IMG/VR virus record: IMGVR_UViG_3300043654_000019
Span: 1-44,929 of that record
Reading direction: 5' to 3' (one strand)
DNA from: a virus
Length of the DNA stretch: 44,929 nt
The translations under genes and the position numbers were made by a program. This document shows, one piece after another, positions 1 through 28,803 of the stretch (position 1 is its first letter; each line of letters opens with the position of its first letter). Under the pieces are notes generated by a model. It ran no database searches and was not told the origin of the DNA. It saw only the letters and a list, made by a program, of their open reading frames with translations.

Positions 1-127
1 AAAAGTCGGCGCGACACCGCTATTGACGGTTTGGGCAACGTGACATATATTCACGTCACCAGGGTTTTCTTGCCCACACTCAGCCCACAGCACCCGCTCC
101 CTAGAAGAAAAAGGACGAACCCAATGA
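1..127. repeat. terminal direct repeat, left copy (circular closure)
   Basis: Bases 1-127 are identical to 44803-44929. The repeat ends four bases into the integrase coding sequence, so the right end simply runs on into the left end. A length of exactly 127 equals a k-mer size widely used in short-read assembly, so this is most likely the overlap of a circular contig and not a biological terminal repeat. The unique circle is then 44,802 bp. Confidence 0.95.
23..56 (+). promoter_or_regulatory. integrase promoter with overlapping operators
   Basis: A near-consensus sigma70-type promoter is visible: TTGACG at 23-28, a 17-nt spacer and TATATT at 46-51. Two elements overlap it. One is a copy of the phage-wide operator, GGCAACGTGACATA at 34-47. 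The other is a 19-bp dyad, ACGTGA-N7-TCACGT at 38-56, centred on the -10 box. This geometry is what one expects of a repressed integrase promoter. The same sequence recurs at 44825-44858 because of the terminal repeat. Confidence 0.8.
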
Positions 128-1344
128 ATAAGCCGCTCACTCAGAAAATTATCGACACCACGCCAACGCCGGAAGCCGGCTTCAAGGAATTGCGCGAGCG
201 CGGGCTCGTGCTGCGCATTTCGGCCAGCGGCGCCAAGTCGTGGTCGTTTGAATTTCGGTCGCCGCTCACCAAGAAAAATGCGCGCATTTCGTTCAAAGCG
301 ACGTCGCTCGCCGACGCGCGCGCGATCGTTCACCGCCATCGTGTCGCGCTCACCGAAGGCAAAGACCCGAGCGTGGAACGAAAGGACGCGGTTGTTGCGG
401 AACGCGTTGAGTATGCGCGCGCCGTCAACGTGCGAACCTCGATCGATAAATATGAGCCGATCTTCAAAGCCGCCGCGCCGCTCAAGCAAGCTTCGCGTCT
501 CGATCGCCTCCACAGACTAAGGCGCGTCCTGGCGCCGTTCATGGATCGGTCCGTCTCCTCGCTGGCGCGCGATGAAATGTTGCGCTTCCTCGACGACGTG
601 CAAGCGAATAGCGGGCCTGTTGCTCGCAACCGCGCCCATGCCGAAATTTGCGCGTGGCTTGTTTGGGCGGCCGATCGCGGGCATGCGGCGAGCAACGTGC
701 TCGATCGCGCGCGCAAGGGCAAAGAGACGGCGAAAAAGCGCGTGCTGACCGACGCCGAGCTCGCCGCGATGATGGCCGGAACGGCGGACGGCTCGGCGTT
801 CTCCGATTTCATTCGCGTGCTCTTGCATACCGGCATGCGCCGAAACGAAGCCTCGAGCCTTCAACCGCGATGGCTCGACTTTGAAGCGCGGACAATCACA
901 ATCCCGGCCTCCGTAAACAAGACGACCCTCGACCGCGTGATCCCGATGGCTGACGCGATCGCGCCAATGCTTCAAGTTCGCATCGAAGGCCTGGCGCGCG
1001 ACGCCTATATCTTCGGCGAAGGATCGAAATTTCGGTCGCCGTTGTCGGGTTGGGGCAAGCCGACCGATCGGTTGCGCACCCTCATGCCGCCGTGTGACGA
1101 GGGCAACGGTTGGACGCTGCACGATATCCGCCGCACGGTTGCGACCCGCATGCACAAGGCCAAGGTCCATCCTTTGACGGTTGAGGATTTGCTTGGTCAC
1201 ATGACCGGCGTGCGGGCGGGCATGGCGGGCGTCTACAACCAGGCCGAGACGTTGGACGATCAAAGCCTCGCCGTCGCCGATTGGGCGGCCAAGCTGGCGT
1301 CGCTGACGACGAACGTCGTGCCGTTCAAGCAGCGGGTGGCTTGA
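124..1344 (+). CDS. int: tyrosine-type site-specific integrase
   Basis: This recombinase would integrate and excise the circular phage DNA at a host tRNA-Phe gene (attP lies immediately upstream on the circle). The product is 406 aa. Roughly residues 1-200 look like a DUF4102-type arm-binding domain and a core-binding domain. The catalytic domain follows, with Arg239 in GMRRNE, Lys266, His333 and Arg336 in HDIRR, His359 in LLGHM and the nucleophile Tyr371 in VYNQ, so the active site is complete. Start 124 is chosen because AAGGA lies 8 nt upstream. An in-frame TTG at 31 falls inside the promoter and is rejected. The next gene starts one base after the stop. Confidence 0.96.
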   Translation: MNKPLTQKIIDTTPTPEAGFKELRERGLVLRISASGAKSWSFEFRSPLTKKNARISFKATSLADARAIVHRHRVALTEGKDPSVERKDAVVAERVEYARAVNVRTSIDKYEPIFKAAAPLKQASRLDRLHRLRRVLAPFMDRSVSSLARDEMLRFLDDVQANSGPVARNRAHAEICAWLVWAADRGHAASNVLDRARKGKETAKKRVLTDAELAAMMAGTADGSAFSDFIRVLLHTGMRRNEASSLQPRWLDFEARTITIPASVNKTTLDRVIPMADAIAPMLQVRIEGLARDAYIFGEGSKFRSPLSGWGKPTDRLRTLMPPCDEGNGWTLHDIRRTVATRMHKAKVHPLTVEDLLGHMTGVRAGMAGVYNQAETLDDQSLAVADWAAKLASLTTNVVPFKQRVA

Positions 1345-9784: not shown

Positions 9785-10339
9785 TTAGGCGACGGCGATC
9801 GCGTTGCTGACGATCGGGGTTGAGCCGGCCGGATTGGTCGCCGTCACTCGGCAACTGACATTCGTACCGCTGTCGGCCGCCGCCAGGAGATAGCTGGCCG
9901 CCGTGGCGCCGGCGATGTTCGCGCCGCCGCGTAGCCACTGGTAGGCGTAGCCGGTCGGGGCATAGTTCCAAACGCCTTGCGTGCACGAGAGCGTCGAGCC
10001 GACCGTCGCCGTGCCCGAGGCGACCGGGGGCGTGGTGTTGAGCGGCGGGATTTCGAGCGACAGGCCGGCCGTGATCGCCGCCGCCATCGCGGCGTTGGTC
10101 AGGTTGCCGCCCTTGCCGGCGTTGACAACCAAAAGCACGTCATTGGTGAAATGCGAGTTGGCCGCATTGCCCGGCTGCAGGCCGACGGGCGCGTTCTCAA
10201 TGGTCGTATCGTGCGTGCTGGCGTCGCCGCCGAGCGCGGTTACGATCGCGTTGAGCTCGGTCGCCCGGTTGGGGTTGGCGTAGTGGATTTTGGTGTTGAG
10301 CAAGATTTGCCCGGCGAAGTCGGCGATTTGATAGCTCAT
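9785..10339 (-). CDS. Ig-like domain protein
   Basis: A 184-aa protein. The N-terminal 95 residues (MSYQIADFAGQILLN..., NAGKGGNLTNAAMAAAITAG) look like a small alpha/beta domain. Residues 98-184 form a bacterial Ig-like beta-sandwich, with VGSTLSCTQGVWNYAP, YAYQWLRGG, SYLLAAADSGTNVSCRVTATN and a closing strand. Ig-like domains in phages usually decorate virions and bind surface carbohydrate. It starts by ATGA overlap with the Gly/Pro-rich gene. Its place in a leftward operon away from the late genes is unusual. Confidence 0.75.
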   Translation of the reverse strand: MSYQIADFAGQILLNTKIHYANPNRATELNAIVTALGGDASTHDTTIENAPVGLQPGNAANSHFTNDVLLVVNAGKGGNLTNAAMAAAITAGLSLEIPPLNTTPPVASGTATVGSTLSCTQGVWNYAPTGYAYQWLRGGANIAGATAASYLLAAADSGTNVSCRVTATNPAGSTPIVSNAIAVA

Positions 10340-12996: not shown

Positions 12997-13650
12997 TCAA
13001 TCCGCCTTGGCGGGCAAGGTCAAGATCGGCGTGGCCTTGAACACTTCGGCCACCCAACGCGCATGACCGGCCTCGGCCTCCTCCCAAGTCGAATAGCGCT
13101 CCTGGCCGGCGGCCTCGTGGCCAACGAACGCCATGGTTTCAAACAGGAGCGGGGGGCCGTGGCCGAAAGAATGATCGAGGCCTAGAAACACCGTCGACAC
13201 GCGCACGTCGCCTTGAAAGCTATCGCGGACGTGCCGATCGGTCGTCTCGAGCCATTCGGCCCATTTGAACAAGTCGGGCTCGGCGACTGCGTCATGGCCG
13301 ACGCGCAGAAAAACCTTGTCGCCTTCGCCTTGAACCTTGGTGATGGAATAGGCCGGGTTGGCCTGATTGCTCATCGCGTCGCCGACGTACTCGGGCGCAA
13401 GATCGGCAATTTCGACGCCAAGCTTGGCCGCAATCTTTTTCAGGATGAGCGGGCTCGGGAACGCCTTGCCCCTGATATAGACGCTAATCCGATCGCGGTT
13501 CTTGGCGACCGTGTAGCCCTTTTTTGTCGTCGTCGAGCCCCACACTAACCGCGCAAGATCGCTACCGGTCATGCCCTTTTGATCAAGGAGTTGTTTCAGC
13601 CGCCGGCCGAAGGCTTTTTTAACTTCGTCCGACACGGCGCGCGAGCTCAC
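12997..13650 (-). CDS. XRE HTH fused to conserved phage C-terminal domain
   Basis: A 217-aa fusion. Residues 8-75 are a Cro/C1-type HTH (FGRRLKQLLDQKGMTGSDLARLVWG, with a basic insert, then ISVYIRGKAFPSP). Residues 135-205 are a domain found alone in many phages, recognisable by VSTVFLGLDHSFGHGPPLLF and RYSTWEEAEAGHARWV; its function is not established. There is no LexA-type peptidase segment. It is ATGA-coupled to a second HTH gene at 13647. It is a candidate for the lysogenic repressor or a co-regulator that reads the GGCAANRTGACTA operators. Confidence 0.75.
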   Translation of the reverse strand: MSSRAVSDEVKKAFGRRLKQLLDQKGMTGSDLARLVWGSTTTKKGYTVAKNRDRISVYIRGKAFPSPLILKKIAAKLGVEIADLAPEYVGDAMSNQANPAYSITKVQGEGDKVFLRVGHDAVAEPDLFKWAEWLETTDRHVRDSFQGDVRVSTVFLGLDHSFGHGPPLLFETMAFVGHEAAGQERYSTWEEAEAGHARWVAEVFKATPILTLPAKAD

Positions 13651-15412: not shown

Positions 15413-16315
15413 TTATGCAGCCTCCAGCATCGGCTCGAGCTCCTCGAGCTCCTCAACTGGCGCCGCAATCGCGGCCTCGCGCATGAATTCGACGGCGCGC
15501 GACGCTGCAGCTGCAGCGGCAACGATCGCCTTGTCATGTTCGGTCAGGAATTGCACCCAATGGGCGATGTAAGCCGCATCGGCGCCGTCATTGTCGAAAG
15601 CAAACTCAGCGCACAAAAACGCGCTGGTGAGCTCGGCCACGAGCTCCTCGGCAGAGTAAGCGCGATCGCCGAACTTCTTACCGAACGTGCGATTAAGCCG
15701 CTTCTCGGCGCCCGTCCAATGCCCGAGCTCATGGAACGCCACGCCATAATAGCTCGAGGCGGTCTTGAACGTCTCGAAGGCCGGCATGTTCACAAAGTCG
15801 GCGCCCGGCTGGTAATAGGCGCGCGGCTCGCCGTGACGATAATCGGCGCCCGTGGCTGCAATGAATTGATCGGCCAATTCGTCGCGCGCGTTGGCGTTGG
15901 CGACGCGTTGCGCGCCGTTCGGATCGGTCACGCGCGCCGGTAAATTGTCGCATTGCGCGACATTGAAAACCGTGTACGCCTTCAGGAACGAAATGGCGCG
16001 CCGCTCGCCGGTCGCGTCATCCTTCTTTATGAGTTTCGAAACATAAATGACGGTCTCGCCCTTTTCGCCCTTGCGCACGTTGCCGCCAAGCTCAAGGGCT
16101 TGTTTGAACGTCAACCATAGCGGCGCGGTAAACCCGCTTTCTTGCGCGCGCGACCACAGCAAAATGACGTTGGCGCCCGAATAGGCGCGTTGCGTGAGCG
16201 CGTTGCGCGGCATGACGCCAAACCCTTTCGACGACCATGGTTGACGCCACGGGACAACACCAGTCTTGAGCCGCGCGACAATGCGGGCGGTGATTTCAGC
16301 GTGAAGATTTCTCAT
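15413..16315 (-). CDS. ardC: ArdC-like antirestriction protein with zincin domain
   Basis: A 300-aa protein. Residues 1-120 form the ArdC single-stranded-DNA-binding region (LKTGVVPWRQPW, YSGANVILLW, WLTFKQALELGG, RKGEKGETVIYV, YTVFNVAQCDNLP). Residues 185-240 form a zinc metalloprotease-like domain with HELGHW (His195, Glu196, His199) and SAEELVAEL supplying the third ligand. ArdC proteins protect entering DNA from host restriction. Start 16315 fits the family start RNLHAEITARIV; a longer in-frame form from 16402 is less likely. It follows a 53-aa gene under the operator-rich promoter at 16.55 kb. Confidence 0.88.
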   Translation of the reverse strand: MRNLHAEITARIVARLKTGVVPWRQPWSSKGFGVMPRNALTQRAYSGANVILLWSRAQESGFTAPLWLTFKQALELGGNVRKGEKGETVIYVSKLIKKDDATGERRAISFLKAYTVFNVAQCDNLPARVTDPNGAQRVANANARDELADQFIAATGADYRHGEPRAYYQPGADFVNMPAFETFKTASSYYGVAFHELGHWTGAEKRLNRTFGKKFGDRAYSAEELVAELTSAFLCAEFAFDNDGADAAYIAHWVQFLTEHDKAIVAAAAAASRAVEFMREAAIAAPVEELEELEPMLEAA

Positions 16316-16344
16316 TTGAGCGGTTATCCTTTGCTTTGTGGGGA

Positions 16345-16506
16345 TTAGTGCGAGCGCGCGCCGTTCGTGGCGATGCGCCAAAAGTTGCGCGCCTCTTTCC
16401 AAGTCAGGACCATCGGCCCTTTGCCAGCTGCGCAGACGCGCGCGTCATGCGAAGCAATGGCCTCGCGGAAGAAAAACCGGCGAATATTGCGTTGGCGGAT
16501 TGTCAT
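16345..16506 (-). CDS. 53-aa basic protein, first gene of ardC operon
   Basis: A short gene with AGGAG 8 nt before ATG 16506 and a TAA stop at 16345. The product is basic and aromatic (MTIRQRNIRRFFFREAIASH, LTWKEARNFWRIATNG), with the look of a small nucleic-acid-binding protein. It lies between the operator-bearing promoter and ardC. Function unknown. Confidence 0.55.
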   Translation of the reverse strand: MTIRQRNIRRFFFREAIASHDARVCAAGKGPMVLTWKEARNFWRIATNGARSH

Positions 16507-20967: not shown

Positions 20968-21290
20968 GAGCGCCGCAATTCGGTCCCGGCAAGGTCAGGC
21001 CGCCGCGCGTTCCCGAAAAACGGGACATATTCGGGAAAGATGTCCCGCCCGGTCCCAACCCCGAGGCCGAGCGCGGCCTTCGCGTCAAGCCGTTCGCCAA
21101 CATCTTCGCTTTGGTCGAAGGCCTCGGCGTGGTTTCGCTACATCAAACCGAACGGCAAGCAAAAACGGCGCGCGAGGGAGAAATCGCGCGCCGTTTAAGC
21201 TTCAACAAGCTCTCAAGCGATCGCCGCGCGCCGGCGGAAGCCGATGAGGCCGAGGACCCCGAAGCCCAAAGCGAGCATCGTCCAGGTTGA
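20964..21290 (+). CDS. last accessory gene, 3' end altered by the PEP-CTERM cassette
   Basis: A basic 108-aa protein with a FANIFALVEGLGVVSLHQ segment at about 44-61. The start overlaps the preceding stop by ATGA. From codon 67 onward the frame runs through a strong hairpin terminator and then antisense to the last 78 nt of the PEP-CTERM gene. Insertion of that cassette has probably replaced the original 3' end, so the last 40 residues may not be ancestral. Confidence 0.5.
   Translation: MRAPQFGPGKVRPPRVPEKRDIFGKDVPPGPNPEAERGLRVKPFANIFALVEGLGVVSLHQTERQAKTAREGEIARRLSFNKLSSDRRAPAEADEAEDPEAQSEHRPG
21161..21198. terminator. strong bidirectional hairpin terminator
   Basis: A 13-bp perfect stem, AAACGGCGCGCGA (21163-21175) with TCGCGCGCCGTTT (21184-21196), encloses an 8-nt loop. 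On the minus strand it is followed by a run of five T, so it mainly ends transcription of the PEP-CTERM gene. It can also stop rightward accessory transcription. Confidence 0.85.
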
Positions 21291-21773
21291 CGGCTCGGGC
21301 GTCGAGACCGCCGTGATCGTGCCGTCGATCGCAATATGGATCGGCGACGACCCGCTCACGCCCTCGACCAGGGCGAAGTAGTTGCCGGCGCCGAGCGCGT
21401 CGGGCGCGACCGTCGCTTCCTGGCCGCCGATCACGTTGAGGATCGACGAGCTTTCGATCAGCGAGCCGGTCGGCTGGAACGGCGAAACGCCAACATTGCC
21501 GGTCCAGTCGTTGAGCGACAGCACGCCGCCGACAATCTTCTGGTTGCCGATCGCGCTATCCGACACCGACACGGTGACCGTTTCCGTCACCGGCAACGTA
21601 AACTCGAAAAACTCCTGAAACCCGATCCCCGAGCCGGGCGTGTCCTGCGCCGGAAGCGCCAGGCTCTCGTTGAGAACCGAACCGATATTGTCGACGGTGA
21701 TTTGCGTCGCCGCGTAGGCAGGCGCGGCCAATGCGACGACGGCCGCAGCCAAGGCGAAAGTCAGCTTGTGCAT
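21213..21773 (-). CDS. PEP-CTERM sorted exported protein (moron)
   Basis: A 186-aa protein with a signal peptide (KLTFALAAAVVALAAPAYA, cleavage after about residue 21), a beta-rich body (about 22-155) and a complete PEP-CTERM tail. The tail starts with PEPST at 159-163, continues with a hydrophobic helix WTMLALGFGVLGLIGF and ends in RRR. Such proteins are exported and processed by a host exosortase and usually serve the cell surface or extracellular matrix. The gene runs against the phage operon, has its own ribosome site (GGGGAA) and its own terminator, and lies between two operons. It fits a moron expressed in the lysogen. Confidence 0.92.
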   Translation of the reverse strand: MHKLTFALAAAVVALAAPAYAATQITVDNIGSVLNESLALPAQDTPGSGIGFQEFFEFTLPVTETVTVSVSDSAIGNQKIVGGVLSLNDWTGNVGVSPFQPTGSLIESSSILNVIGGQEATVAPDALGAGNYFALVEGVSGSSPIHIAIDGTITAVSTPEPSTWTMLALGFGVLGLIGFRRRAAIA

Positions 21774-21839
21774 AATAATTCCCCAAGTTCACGAAGGCTT
21801 GATTTACGCACGTTCGAATGACGCCGGCAAGATGCAGGA

Positions 21840-21859
21840 AGGGCCGCTTGCGCGGCCCT
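21840..21859 (-). terminator. short hairpin downstream of Pro/Gly-rich gene
   Basis: AGGGCCGC (21840-21847), a TTGC loop and GCGGCCCT (21852-21859) form a perfect 8-bp stem. On the minus strand only TTCC follows, so it is a weak terminator. It lies between the stop of the 21893 gene and the PEP-CTERM gene and helps isolate the latter. Confidence 0.55.
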
Positions 21860-21892
21860 CCACAGTTGCACCAGAAGAAACCTACGTCAAGC

Positions 21893-22354
21893 TTATGACG
21901 GCGTCCCCGCGCCGGCCGGATAGGCGGTTTGCTTCCAGCCTTGGCCGGGCCTGTAGACGGCGACGACGACGTCGTCGGCATAGGCCGCCGGCGGGTCAGG
22001 CGGCGGCGGCATGACCTCGGGGTCAACCGGCACGCCAGGCGCGCCGCCCGGCGGCAAGCCCTGGCCGGGCCCCTCGCTCGGATAGCCATAGCCAGGATCG
22101 ACCGGACGGCCGCCGCCCGGCGCGATCGGATAGCCATAGCCAGGATCGATCGGCCGGCCCGGCCGCACCGGGCCTTGGCTCGGATAGTCAGGACGGCCGG
22201 GCCGGCCAGGCAAACCCTGATCGGGATAATTGCCGCCGCCGGGCAAACCCTGATCGGGATAATAGCCGCCGCCCGGCGGCTGCGGGTGCGGCAAGCCCTG
22301 GTCGGGCGCGCCGCCCGACAACGGGGTAATCAAAGCCAAAAACGGTTGCGTCAT
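21893..22354 (-). CDS. Pro/Gly-rich repeat protein
   Basis: A 153-aa protein built of repeats such as YPDQGLPGGG and DPGYGYP, with the DNA repeats near 22215-22265 and 22078-22150 still nearly identical. A short ordered C-terminal end follows (DDVVVAVYRPGQGWKQTAYP). Start 22354 has AGGAGG. It faces the late promoter and portal gene. Composition links it to the disordered proteins at 10336-11718. Function unknown. Confidence 0.65.
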   Translation of the reverse strand: MTQPFLALITPLSGGAPDQGLPHPQPPGGGYYPDQGLPGGGNYPDQGLPGRPGRPDYPSQGPVRPGRPIDPGYGYPIAPGGGRPVDPGYGYPSEGPGQGLPPGGAPGVPVDPEVMPPPPDPPAAYADDVVVAVYRPGQGWKQTAYPAGAGTPS

Positions 22355-22553: not shown

Positions 22554-24851
22554 ATGCTCGAGCGCATCTTCTCCACATTCAAAGAGGGCGGCGCCGGCGA
22601 CGCCTACGACCCGGCCGACCCCGACAGCTACGAGACCTATATCCAGGCCCTCATTCGCGACAGCCGCGACTATGAAGGAAGTATACTAGCCGCAAAGCGC
22701 AACGAGGCGCAGCTGTATTACTACGGATATTTGCCGTCGTTAAACCCCGACGGCACGCCCTATTCCGACACCATGATTATCCAAGACCCGAACGCCACTT
22801 ACGAGCAAATCCTCGGCGGCGACAAAGACACCCCGAACAAGTCCGCCTACGTCTCGACCGACGTTCGCGACGCCGTGATGCTCATGCTGCCGTCGCTCAT
22901 CCGCCTGTTCGCGGCCAGCGAAAACGTCGTTTCGCTCATTCCCCGCACCCAAGCCGACGTCGACAACGCCCAACAGCAAACCAATTACATCAATTACGTT
23001 TTTTGGCAGGATAATGCGGGTTTTTTGATCCTCTATGGCGCCTTCAAAGACGCCATGACGGTGCGCACCGGCTACGTCAAATGGTGGACCGACGACCGCA
23101 AGGAAAAGCGGCGCAAGACCTTCATCAACTTGGGCCCGCAACAGCTTTCGCTCATCGCTCAAGGCGACCCGAGCGCCAAGCTGATCGAGCACGAGGACCC
23201 CGACCCGCAAACCGGCCTCTTCCCCCGCGTCGTGCTCGAGTTCGAAGTCGACAAGCCGATCATCAAGGTCGCCGGCGTGCCGCCCGAGGAAATGCGCCTC
23301 GACCGCTTTGCGCGCTCGTTTCAAACCTCGCGCATCGTCGGCCATGAGCGCGTGGTGCCGATCGATGAGCTCGTCGCCATGGGCTACGACCGCGAGCAAT
23401 GCCTCGATTATCTGCAGGGCCCGGCGATCAACGAATTCACCATGGAGGCGACGCTGCGCAACCCCGGCCGCTACGCCGGGACCCGGCTCGGCGACGGCGT
23501 CAACTACGGCGAGTGGTACATCAAGGTCGACGGCGATCGCGATGGCTTCCCCGAGCTCCGCTACATCTGCACCATGGGCGACGACTACAAGATCGTCCAC
23601 GACGAGCCGGCCAACCGGGTCAAATTCGCCGTGTTCGGCGTCGACCCGATCAGCCATACGATCGTCGGCGACAGCATCACCGATTACACCAAAGACATTC
23701 AGAAAATTAAAACCAATATGACCCGCGCCGTGCTCGACAGCGCGGCCGAAAGCATCAACCCGAAAACCGTCGTCAACGAACTCAACACCGACCTCGACGA
23801 CGTGCTCAACGATGACGTCGGCGCCGTGATCCGCACGCGCGGCGACGTCCACAACGCCGTCGCCTTCAACAACGTGCCCTTCCTCGGCCAGCAAATGCTG
23901 CCGCTGTTCGAGCTCATGAACGACATTTTCCAGCGCCGCACCGGCTTGTCGGACGCCGCCAAGGGCCTCGACGCCAAGGCGCTGCAGAGCTCGAGCCAGA
24001 TCGGCGTCGAGGCGATCATCAACGGCGCCCAGGAGCGGACCGAGCTCGTCGCCCGCGTGCTCGCCGAAACCGGCTTTAAGGATTTGTTCACCGGCCTCTA
24101 CAACGAGGTTTGCGAGGCCCCCAACCAACGTCGCTCGCTCCGCATCAATGGCAAGTGGAGCGACGTCGACACCGGCACCTTCGACGCCTCGATGGGGGTC
24201 GAAGTCAACTCGACCTTGGGCAAGGGGTCGGACACCGTACGCATGATGACGCTGCAGAACATCAAGAACGACCAGATGACCATTTTCACGCAATTCGGAC
24301 CGAACAATCCGGTCGTCGGCATCCCCGAAATGCTCAACACCATTTCCGACATGCTCGACATCGCCAACATCAAAAACGTCGGCCGCTACTTCAAGACCCC
24401 GACCCCGCAACAATTGCAGGCGATCGCCACCGCGCCCAAGGAGCCGGACGCGATGACGCTGGCCGCGCAAGCCCAATTCCAGAAGGTCAAGGCCGACACC
24501 GCGACCGCCGTCGGCCAACAGAATTTGGCCCAGGCGAAGCAACAGGCCGACGACGATTTCCGCAAGCAACAGCTGGCCGAGAAAACCGCCAACGACCAGG
24601 CCAAGATCGAGCTCGAGCGGCAGAAACTCCACGCCGGCCACGTCGAGAACCTCGGCAGGATGGCGGCCGATATGTTCGGCTCGACGATGGACGCCGACGC
24701 GCAGCATCACCAGGCGATGCAAGACGCGGCGGTCGGCCATCACCAGGCCTTGGTCGACGCTGCGGTCGGTCACCACCAGGCCAACGCCGACGTCCAGGCG
24801 GCGCAAATCCAGGCCGACGCGCAGCCGGCCGATGATGGCGGCGGCCAATGA
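22554..24851 (+). CDS. portal protein (P22/SU10-type)
   Basis: A 765-aa portal, the dodecameric ring through which DNA enters and leaves the head. It has the N-terminal YETYIQALIRDSRDYEGS, the stem-side segments VRDAVMLMLPSLIRLFAASE and FLILYGAFKDAMTVRTGYVK, and the core DPISHTIVGDSITDYTKDIQ, all typical of podoviral portals of this type. The C-terminal 130 residues form a long Gln/Ala/His-rich helix with repeated GHHQA units, longer than needed for the core and probably the barrel. The stop overlaps the next start as ATGA. Confidence 0.9.
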   Translation: MLERIFSTFKEGGAGDAYDPADPDSYETYIQALIRDSRDYEGSILAAKRNEAQLYYYGYLPSLNPDGTPYSDTMIIQDPNATYEQILGGDKDTPNKSAYVSTDVRDAVMLMLPSLIRLFAASENVVSLIPRTQADVDNAQQQTNYINYVFWQDNAGFLILYGAFKDAMTVRTGYVKWWTDDRKEKRRKTFINLGPQQLSLIAQGDPSAKLIEHEDPDPQTGLFPRVVLEFEVDKPIIKVAGVPPEEMRLDRFARSFQTSRIVGHERVVPIDELVAMGYDREQCLDYLQGPAINEFTMEATLRNPGRYAGTRLGDGVNYGEWYIKVDGDRDGFPELRYICTMGDDYKIVHDEPANRVKFAVFGVDPISHTIVGDSITDYTKDIQKIKTNMTRAVLDSAAESINPKTVVNELNTDLDDVLNDDVGAVIRTRGDVHNAVAFNNVPFLGQQMLPLFELMNDIFQRRTGLSDAAKGLDAKALQSSSQIGVEAIINGAQERTELVARVLAETGFKDLFTGLYNEVCEAPNQRRSLRINGKWSDVDTGTFDASMGVEVNSTLGKGSDTVRMMTLQNIKNDQMTIFTQFGPNNPVVGIPEMLNTISDMLDIANIKNVGRYFKTPTPQQLQAIATAPKEPDAMTLAAQAQFQKVKADTATAVGQQNLAQAKQQADDDFRKQQLAEKTANDQAKIELERQKLHAGHVENLGRMAADMFGSTMDADAQHHQAMQDAAVGHHQALVDAAVGHHQANADVQAAQIQADAQPADDGGGQ

Positions 24852-25066
24852 TGTCGGTGTGCAACTGCACCGGGGCTTGCCGTGTGCCGCCCTATCGCTG
24901 CCCCAATGCGCCGCAGCAGTATTCAATGCCGCAATGGCCGGTTGTGCAGCCAATGGGATGCATCTGCCCGCCAACGTCCGAGCAGACGTGCGAGGCGCTG
25001 GCTTGTCCGCGCAGAAACCCCTTCAAGCACGCGCAAGGGCAGCGTAGCGTGACGCATCCCATATGA
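24848..25066 (+). CDS. small Cys-rich protein between portal and terminase
   Basis: A 72-aa protein with eight cysteines (5, 7, 11, 18, 38, 40, 48, 53) in CxC and CxxxC arrangements and many prolines. Coupling to portal and terL by ATGA on both sides indicates it is a genuine part of the packaging cluster. Metal binding is likely; function unknown. Confidence 0.6.
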   Translation: MMSVCNCTGACRVPPYRCPNAPQQYSMPQWPVVQPMGCICPPTSEQTCEALACPRRNPFKHAQGQRSVTHPI

Positions 25067-26376
25067 CCGACCCCGCCGCGCTCCTCGAGCGCGAAATCGA
25101 AGTCGCCTACCGGCCGCGCTCGTTTTTCAAGCCATTACACAACAGCGATAAGCGTTGGATTTTCGAGTGCTGCCACCGCCGCGCCGGCAAGACGGTGGCG
25201 ATCGCCAACCACCTCATCCGCGCGGCTTCTAAAAACCCCCGAAAATGGCCGCCTCCGCGCTATGGCTATGTCGGCCCTTCTTTCGACCAAGCCAAAGATT
25301 TGGTGTGGGGCTACCTCAAACAATACACCGAAGCCATACCGGGCGTCGTCCATCTCGAGGGCGAGCTCAAGACCATCCTGCCGAGCGGCGCCTCGATCAA
25401 ACTCTATGGCGGCGCCGGTGCTTACCAGCGCATGCGCGGCATGTATTTCGACGGCATCGCGCTCGACGAATATCCCCTCCTCGAGCCGACCGTGTTCGGA
25501 ACCGTGGTGCGGCCCTGCCTGGCCGACTATCACGGCTGGGCGATCGTGTCCGGCACGTCGAACGGCGACGACCATTTCAATCAGCTGCGCCTCAGAGCCG
25601 AGCTCGATCCGCGTTGGGACGTCCTCATCATTCCGCTCTCGTCGACCGGCGAGGAGGCGCTCTCCAAGGCCGAGACCGACGAGCTCGTGCAAGACATGAC
25701 GCCCGAGGAATATGCGCGGGAAATGGAGTGCTCCTTCGATGCGCCGGTCGAAGGCGCGTATTACGCCGAAATCCTCAACAAACTCGCCAGCATGGGCCGG
25801 ATTACCAAGGTTTCTCCCGACCTTTCGCAGCCCGTTATTACCGCGTGGGATCTTGGCATTCACGACTATACCTGCATCTGGCTCTATCAAGTGGCCGGCC
25901 GCGAAGTCCACTTCATCGATTACATTCAGGACAACAACAAAGACTTGGGCCATTATACCGATTTGCTGCGGTTGAAGGCCAAGGCCGGCGGCTTCGTCTA
26001 CAAGGCCCATTGCCTGCCGCACGACGTCGAGGCGCGCGAGCTCCAAACCGGTCAAAGCCGGCGCGCCTTCCTCGAAAACGAGCTCGACGAGGCGATCATC
26101 ACCGCCCCAATGTCGAGCCCCGAGGACGGGATCGCCGCCTCGAGGGGCCTCCTCGGCCTGTCATGGTTCGACGCCACGAATTGCAAGAAGGGCCTGGCGA
26201 TGCTGCGCGGCTACCGGAAGTCGAGAATGGGCAAGCCCGTGCACGGCCCCGAGCCCTACAGCCACGGCGCCGACGCCTATCGGACCTTCGCTTGCTCGTT
26301 TCACATGGTCGGCGGCTACCGCTCGCGCCGGCTCGGGCAGGGCGCGCTGCGGCGCAAAATTCGGGGCCTGGTGTGA
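25063..26376 (+). CDS. terL: terminase large subunit
   Basis: A 437-aa packaging motor. The ATPase domain shows Walker A CHRRAGKT (37-44), Walker B GIALDEYP with Asp135/Glu136, and the coupling motif VSGTSNGDD. The nuclease domain has RNase H-fold acidic residues Asp263 (AWDLGIHDYT), Asp321 (HDVEAR) and Asp404 (HGADAYRT). It translocates DNA into the head and cuts concatemers. Length and motif order match terminases of podoviruses with headful or cos packaging; which of the two cannot be told from this gene alone. Confidence 0.95.
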   Translation: MTDPAALLEREIEVAYRPRSFFKPLHNSDKRWIFECCHRRAGKTVAIANHLIRAASKNPRKWPPPRYGYVGPSFDQAKDLVWGYLKQYTEAIPGVVHLEGELKTILPSGASIKLYGGAGAYQRMRGMYFDGIALDEYPLLEPTVFGTVVRPCLADYHGWAIVSGTSNGDDHFNQLRLRAELDPRWDVLIIPLSSTGEEALSKAETDELVQDMTPEEYAREMECSFDAPVEGAYYAEILNKLASMGRITKVSPDLSQPVITAWDLGIHDYTCIWLYQVAGREVHFIDYIQDNNKDLGHYTDLLRLKAKAGGFVYKAHCLPHDVEARELQTGQSRRAFLENELDEAIITAPMSSPEDGIAASRGLLGLSWFDATNCKKGLAMLRGYRKSRMGKPVHGPEPYSHGADAYRTFACSFHMVGGYRSRRLGQGALRRKIRGLV

Positions 26377-27816: not shown

Positions 27817-28803
27817 ATGCCCAAGGTAACGAACGCCTTTACGACTTACCAAGCGGTCGGCAATAGAGAAGATTTATCCAACGCCATCTATAACATTGAC
27901 CCGTTCGACACGCCGGTTATGTCGGCTATTCGTCGGCGCAATGTAAAGAACAGGATTTTCGACTGGCAAACTGAGAACCTGCCGATCGTCAACCCGAACA
28001 ATGCCCAATTCGAAGGCTTTGTGCTCGCCAACGGGCCGTCGCAGCCGACCATTCGCCAGAACAACGTCACGCAAATCAGCGAGCGCGACGCGACCGTTTC
28101 GGGCACGCAGGAAGAGAGCGACGCCGCCGGCAAGGGCTCGGAAATGGCGCACCAGATGGCGCTCGCCTCCAAGGTGCTCAAGTCGGACATGGAAACGATC
28201 TTGTGCGGTCGCCAGCAACGCAACGATGGCAATGACACGGGGCCCACAGCGAGAACTACGGAAGCCTTTAGTCATTGGCTTGCGAGAGCAAAGGACAAGA
28301 CCGGCGCGGTCAACGCGGCGATCGCGCCCGGCACGGTCACCGCCGGCGTTCCGGTCCTGGCGACCGATCCGTTCGCCGCCGTCGCCGCCGGCTCGCAAGT
28401 GTCGATTACCGAGGCGATGCTCGGCGATGCGATGCAACAGGCCTACACCAATGGCGCGAGCCCCTCTCTGTGGATCGTTCCGCCAGGCCCGAAACGCACA
28501 ATCTCGACCTTCGTTGGCCGGTCGACCACCCAAGTCTTGGTCGGCAAGACCGAAGTGGTGAGCACGATCGATGTCATCGCGACCGACTTCGGCCGGATCA
28601 AGGTCGCGCCGTCGCGGTGGGTCCCGGTCGACGTCGCGCTGCTGATCGATCCTGACTATGCGGCGGTCGCGTTCTTCCGCGCCTTCCGCCAGTATTTGAT
28701 GGCGCGCACCGGCGACGCCGAAACCCGCATGATCGTGGTCGAGTGGGGCCTCGAGATGAGGAACAGCGTGGCCCACATGCTCTTCAACGGCATCAAGAAA
28801 TAA
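27817..28803 (+). CDS. major capsid protein (DUF5309/SU10-type)
   Basis: A 328-aa protein of the DUF5309 capsid family, recognisable by NREDLSNAIYNIDPFDTPVM, RIFDWQTENL, SERDATVSGTQEESDAAGKG, ASKVLKSDMETILC, and the C-terminal FFRAFRQYLMARTGDAETRM with the closing RNSVAHMLF. It forms the HK97-fold shell. GAGG lies about 8 nt before ATG 27817. A hairpin follows the stop and may set the ratio of capsid to downstream products. Confidence 0.92.
   Translation: MPKVTNAFTTYQAVGNREDLSNAIYNIDPFDTPVMSAIRRRNVKNRIFDWQTENLPIVNPNNAQFEGFVLANGPSQPTIRQNNVTQISERDATVSGTQEESDAAGKGSEMAHQMALASKVLKSDMETILCGRQQRNDGNDTGPTARTTEAFSHWLARAKDKTGAVNAAIAPGTVTAGVPVLATDPFAAVAAGSQVSITEAMLGDAMQQAYTNGASPSLWIVPPGPKRTISTFVGRSTTQVLVGKTEVVSTIDVIATDFGRIKVAPSRWVPVDVALLIDPDYAAVAFFRAFRQYLMARTGDAETRMIVVEWGLEMRNSVAHMLFNGIKK

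Follow-up and report, generated by a model that had tools for sequence, protein, structure and literature searches.

What is a bacterial protein-sorting signal doing in the genome of a phage, presumably one of soil type? The current view of bacterial PEP-CTERM proteins is that Sec exports them, the tail holds them and an exosortase sorts them; links to exopolysaccharide binding, flocculation and adhesion have been described (PMC1569441, PMC12188702, PMC9850573). The window (the whole stretch of DNA analysed here, an IMG/VR virus record of 44,929 bases) contains a gene whose product has such a tail (Table 1). The first-pass annotation had called this gene a moron, i.e. a cargo gene of the lysogen. 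Our analysis makes it probable that PEP-CTERM genes are exchangeable phage cargo whose products are exported by the exosortase of the host and cover infected or lysogenic cells.

Both ends of the protein proved to be as that annotation had described them, a signal peptide and a PEP-CTERM tail. The N-terminus is hydrophobic and ends in AYA/A, an A-x-A site that by inspection is kept in the family, and a structure model places a helix at residues 3-15, in the signal-peptide region. The tail TPEPSTWTMLALGFGVLGLIGFRRR matches PF07589 (32.9 bits, cut-off 20.7) and TIGR02595 (19.4 bits, cut-off 16); NF035944 gave 27.1 bits, below its cut-off of 35. A six-frame search found this one PEP-CTERM match in the window and none in 14 control genomes.

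Table 1. Features of the PEP-CTERM locus and principal phage genes of the window
Feature	Positions	Strand	Basis or remark
PEP-CTERM protein gene, family 1 (FxDxF-like), 186 aa	21213..21773	-	ORF and profile matches
Signal peptide, ~residues 1-22, A-Y-A/A cleavage site	21708..21773	-	inspection; A-x-A conserved in family alignment
Ectodomain, residues 23-157, predicted beta-sandwich resembling PPC and collagen-binding domains	21303..21707	-	model; median dN/dS ~0.27
PEP-CTERM sorting tail: PEPSTWTM motif, hydrophobic helix, arginines	21228..21302	-	profile matches; invariant P-E-x-x-T-W-x-M
Hairpin then T-run, terminator-like	21163..21196	-	sequence and fold
Promoter-like block TCTTGC-N4-GTCA-N6-CGTGCGTAA	21804..21832	-	conserved upstream of the PEP-CTERM gene in close relatives
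GC-rich hairpin separating proline-rich ORF and PEP-CTERM gene; likely terminator of the proline-rich ORF	21837..21861	-	
Proline-rich ORF, neighbour of the PEP-CTERM gene in the window group, without family match	21893..22354	-	
Tyrosine integrase (phrog_1)	31..1344	+	
Repressor-like regulator	12997..13650	-	
Portal protein (phrog_1216), first plus-strand gene beyond the cargo site	22554..24851	+	
Terminase large subunit (phrog_2)	25063..26376	+	
Major capsid protein (phrog_1328)	27817..28803	+	

Is the gene a transcription unit of its own? In the window its strand opposes that of its neighbours, with plus-strand early genes running to 21290 on one side and the plus-strand portal gene on the other; only the adjoining proline-rich ORF shares its strand. 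That ORF, which is rich in glycine as well as proline and is kept in many relatives of the window, may be part of the same cargo unit. The promoter-like block occurs in full (TCTTGC-N4-GTCA-N6-CGTGCG) only once in the window; no sigma-70 consensus was found, and the sigma-54 type upstream box known from Proteobacteria was not recognised by eye. A 34-nt hairpin of -23.8 kcal/mol leads into a T-run 16 nt past the stop of the gene. It was absent from the output of a simple terminator scanner, so the terminator call rests on sequence and fold. Transcription against the phage operons and a private hairpin terminator, both claimed previously, are features of the window that do not extend to the whole family: elsewhere the gene is found inside or at the end of a series of late genes and has their direction, a terminator-like hairpin follows it in only 8 of 44 members, and its own promoter and terminator are visible in only part of the family.

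The record has an integrase, a repressor-like gene and portal, terminase and capsid genes, and the window phage is therefore very likely temperate. Its major capsid protein is 66% identical to the capsid protein of Ochrobactrum phage vB_OspP_OH. Gene neighbours were called with simple ORF rules, and the labels of the small early genes are provisional. Two further minus-strand genes of the window have relatives among these phages: an anti-restriction protein (15413-16402; phrog_7245, ArdC-like) has 77-83% identity to its counterparts in L003 and L026, and a protein with Ig-like sequence (9785-10339) has relatives in many otherwise different PEP-carrying phages.

The first-pass annotation had suggested searching phage genomes for PEP-CTERM tails. 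Two families of phage PEP-CTERM proteins came to light. Homologues of the window protein (family 1) occupy 52 loci on 51 other IMG/VR viral contigs, at 56-86% identity; with the methods used, none was found in the genome (84,980 genomes), cultured-phage and plasmid collections searched. In an alignment of 36 non-redundant members (A3), residues P159, E160, T163, W164, M166 and G170 are invariant in all 36, and the motif P-E-x-x-T-W-x-M stays constant while the hydrophobic helix around it is among the most variable parts. A fixed motif in a drifting helix is what one sees when a sorting motif is in use. At the third place of the motif 26 members have proline and the other 10 have T, A, L or I, a departure from strict PEP. 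With a median dN/dS of ~0.27 the ectodomain is, by this measure, under purifying selection, and it varies less than the membrane helix; constraint on the signal peptide and tail is weaker (~0.5). NF038126 (FxDxF PEP-CTERM) is matched by all 36 phage members at E up to 0.001. The window protein matches the full model with 48.3 bits (E 1.3e-12) and does not reach the curated cut-off of 50; it is a close relative of that family, not filed as a member. Many of the aligned phage proteins have a short extension past the arginines, such as ARFAF, PRYAL or SRFAEV, unlike the bacterial tails examined, and this extension might be a marker of host exosortase type.

Could this simply be a gene picked up from the host by accident, or a piece of host DNA on a contig wrongly labelled as viral? 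PEP-CTERM proteins are ordinary in matrix-forming bacterial species (PMC1569441), but we give this account almost no credence, given that phage genes flank the gene on both sides in the window and surround it on many other viral contigs, and that the family was not found in the 84,980 genomes searched and is under purifying selection. Misassembly or host contamination at the window was rejected on the strength of conserved phage flanks in its relatives.

The place of the gene differs from phage to phage. In the window group (L002-L004, L019, L027, L033, L034) family 1 genes are antisense and directly precede the portal gene. In G781, G786 and G789, which share 82-85% capsid protein identity with the window, the gene sits at the end of the tail genes, beside the integrase. 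In phages with unrelated terminases it lies upstream of a TerS/TerL pair of the phrog_9 type, or else between the endolysin and a phrog_38-type terminase or between portal and capsid genes. An integrase is present in 12 of 23 sampled records. In the gene tree members from the same site cluster, yet 11 changes of phage lineage are needed where the minimum would be 6, which implies that unrelated phages have exchanged the gene. One 52-kb record (IMGVR_UViG_3300021475_000019, G786) has two different integrase and PEP-CTERM pairs 42 kb apart (L022 and L030, at ~4.4-6.2 kb and 46.7-48.3 kb), which looks like tandem prophages or an assembly join.

These placements bring in a rather unlikely alternative, that the protein appears late in lytic growth and serves as a surface factor of the dying cell, in matrix release or in association with the virion, its tail being used during infection and not in lysogens. 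Late expression is possible, and agrees with these positions as well as lysogenic conversion does, because in several phages family 1 genes lie in, or end, runs of late genes with the same direction: between portal and capsid genes (L031, L032, L038-L045), after the endolysin or nearby late genes (L006, L020, L021), and after the tail genes in the integrase-adjacent copies; most of the copies in late runs have no terminator of their own. In the window group, on the other hand, the gene is antisense to the late genes and has its own promoter-like block and putative terminator, and a signal peptide with an inner-membrane sorting tail is ill-suited to a virion protein.

The other family came to light when relatives of the window were collected via the portal protein (best 80 matches). 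Among these, a PEP-CTERM gene is present in 11 of the 14 relatives of at least 38 kb; ten are above the PF07589 cut-off, and the eleventh (G794, L046) has family 1. The second type of protein (family 2) has ~240 residues and an ectodomain with the signature LQLSI..TFTCxDGxLSCD...FSMTE, with no detectable homology to that of family 1 (hhalign probability 0.2%). It is found on 39 viral contigs (L122, L243-L280), none of them among the 51 family 1 contigs; as viral contigs are often fragments, the lack of a second cassette on any one of them is weak evidence. In three relatives of the window (L090:4435-5181, L094:235-975, L099:2469-3197) a family 2 gene stands where the window gene does and with the same orientation, and in L099 the block TCTTGC-N4-GTCA-N6-CGTGCG is kept upstream. 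Two more PEP-CTERM proteins of this phage clade, one of a further type (L222) and one divergent (L224), have other ectodomains again. The conserved item is the sorting tag, not the ectodomain.

Such a swap of unrelated ectodomains on a shared tail at one site is also what one would see if the phage protein were a decoy, competing for the host exosortase so that the host's own PEP-CTERM proteins were kept off the surface and the matrix loosened or receptors removed, with the ectodomain of minor importance. The concentration of the most invariant residues in the motif suits this idea as well. We nevertheless judge it quite improbable, since a pure decoy would have no need of an ectodomain that is under purifying selection and better conserved than the membrane helix.

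The gene is an extra one between phage genes, placed differently or missing in relatives; in the window it has a conserved promoter-like block and a hairpin. Moron status, which the first-pass annotation had proposed, is well supported: the position varies, the window copy has a putative terminator, unrelated phages have exchanged the gene, the second PEP-CTERM gene can take its place, and the phages are temperate. From the spread of the same or an interchangeable gene across many related and unrelated phages, it would seem that phages of this kind alter the surface of the bacteria in which they live.

Where would the sorting enzyme come from? An exosortase encoded by the phage was rejected, none being found in 24 phage records, so the supply would have to come from the host. 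In view of this result and the invariant sorting motif, family 1 proteins are likely to depend on a host exosortase, as the earlier annotation had claimed; that this restricts the likely hosts, its further point, we infer. Of 385 sampled Alphaproteobacteria 51 carry an exosortase, and all four with PEP tails matching the phage profile are among the carriers (by our calculation a chance of ~3 in 10,000), a result that links such tails with exosortase but does not make those four bacteria the hosts.

Attempts to find the host itself gave little. A profile search of genome contigs with the family alignment had no matches, and the capsid alignment found just two distant prophages there, in Enterovirga aerilata (53%) and a Caulobacteraceae MAG (49%). 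Searches of 397 genomes of one order, 385 of the class and the small order of G721 returned tail matches only. Eleven distant prophages with a related capsid gene (at most 53% identity) have no PEP-CTERM gene, and 8 of the 11 bacterial genomes with these prophages lack an exosortase, which counts against the favoured reading. The integrase and anti-restriction proteins indicated no genus, and no host flank was seen by inspection on the long virus contigs examined.

The ectodomain of family 1 was modelled as a beta-sandwich (mean pLDDT 75) with structural matches to PPC, collagen-binding and enterotoxin C-terminal domains (Z 10-11); the model for family 2 was too poor for use (mean pLDDT 44). 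The predicted fold is a common binding sandwich and does not in itself indicate function. We favour a phage-coded, exosortase-sorted surface protein because of the bacterial PEP-CTERM precedent, the lack of an exosortase in the phage records, the association of such tails with exosortase and the predicted binding fold of the ectodomain. That an exosortase processes the protein, that it is displayed on the surface and that lysogens express it are predictions, as is the eventual phenotype. The protein would be exported and sorted to the surface by the exosortase of the host, where its beta-sandwich would alter binding by the infected or lysogenic cell, most likely masking or blocking receptors against other phages or fixing exopolysaccharide. 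The first-pass annotation had made similar proposals, an altered host surface or biofilm and perhaps a block to competing phages. On a broader proposal we are evenly divided: unrelated lineages of uncultured phages would use the host exosortase pathway as a general port, with one slot, interchangeable ectodomains and a common tail, making up a new class of lysogenic conversion that rewrites the surface or matrix of bacteria with an exosortase.

Most of what is known about prophages altering the cell surface comes from a few cultured bacteria, where O-antigen enzymes and small membrane proteins are responsible. The phages described here are uncultured, and as a whole group they seem to rely on a bacterial system for protein sorting that is itself poorly understood. 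If this is true, the hosts of many orphan phages could be narrowed to exosortase carriers, and the phage genes would offer a handle on the role of PEP-CTERM proteins at the surface and make it possible to test directly whether prophages influence how environmental bacteria aggregate and resist phages.

How does the phage gene compare with known systems? No earlier report of phage PEP-CTERM proteins was found in the open-licence PMC papers searched. The gene shares with the bacterial PEP-CTERM/exosortase system (Haft et al. 2006, PMC1569441) a signal peptide, PEP motif, hydrophobic helix and basic end, and in that system too the gene is often a single-gene unit. It differs in lying on temperate phages without an exosortase and without nearby exopolysaccharide genes, and in that the third motif position of phage members is often not proline. 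The likeness of the window protein to the FxDxF family (NF038126) spans ectodomain and tail; a bacterial copy of that type close to the phage clade was not found. PepA of Zoogloea and Aquincola, a secreted, floc-forming PEP-CTERM protein thought to hold exopolysaccharide to cells, is chromosomally encoded (PMC9850573), whereas family 1 is carried by phages; the PepA-type model matches 6 of the 36 phage members, and the window protein falls below its cut-off.

Among phage morons the nearest counterparts are lysogenic conversion genes for surface change. Examples in lambda are bor and lom. P22 has gtrABC and SieA (PMC10883804). Family 1 shares with such morons its status as an extra gene of temperate phages, a product predicted to be exported, a varying position and exchange between phages; unlike them, it would take its product to the surface by means of an exosortase sorting tag.
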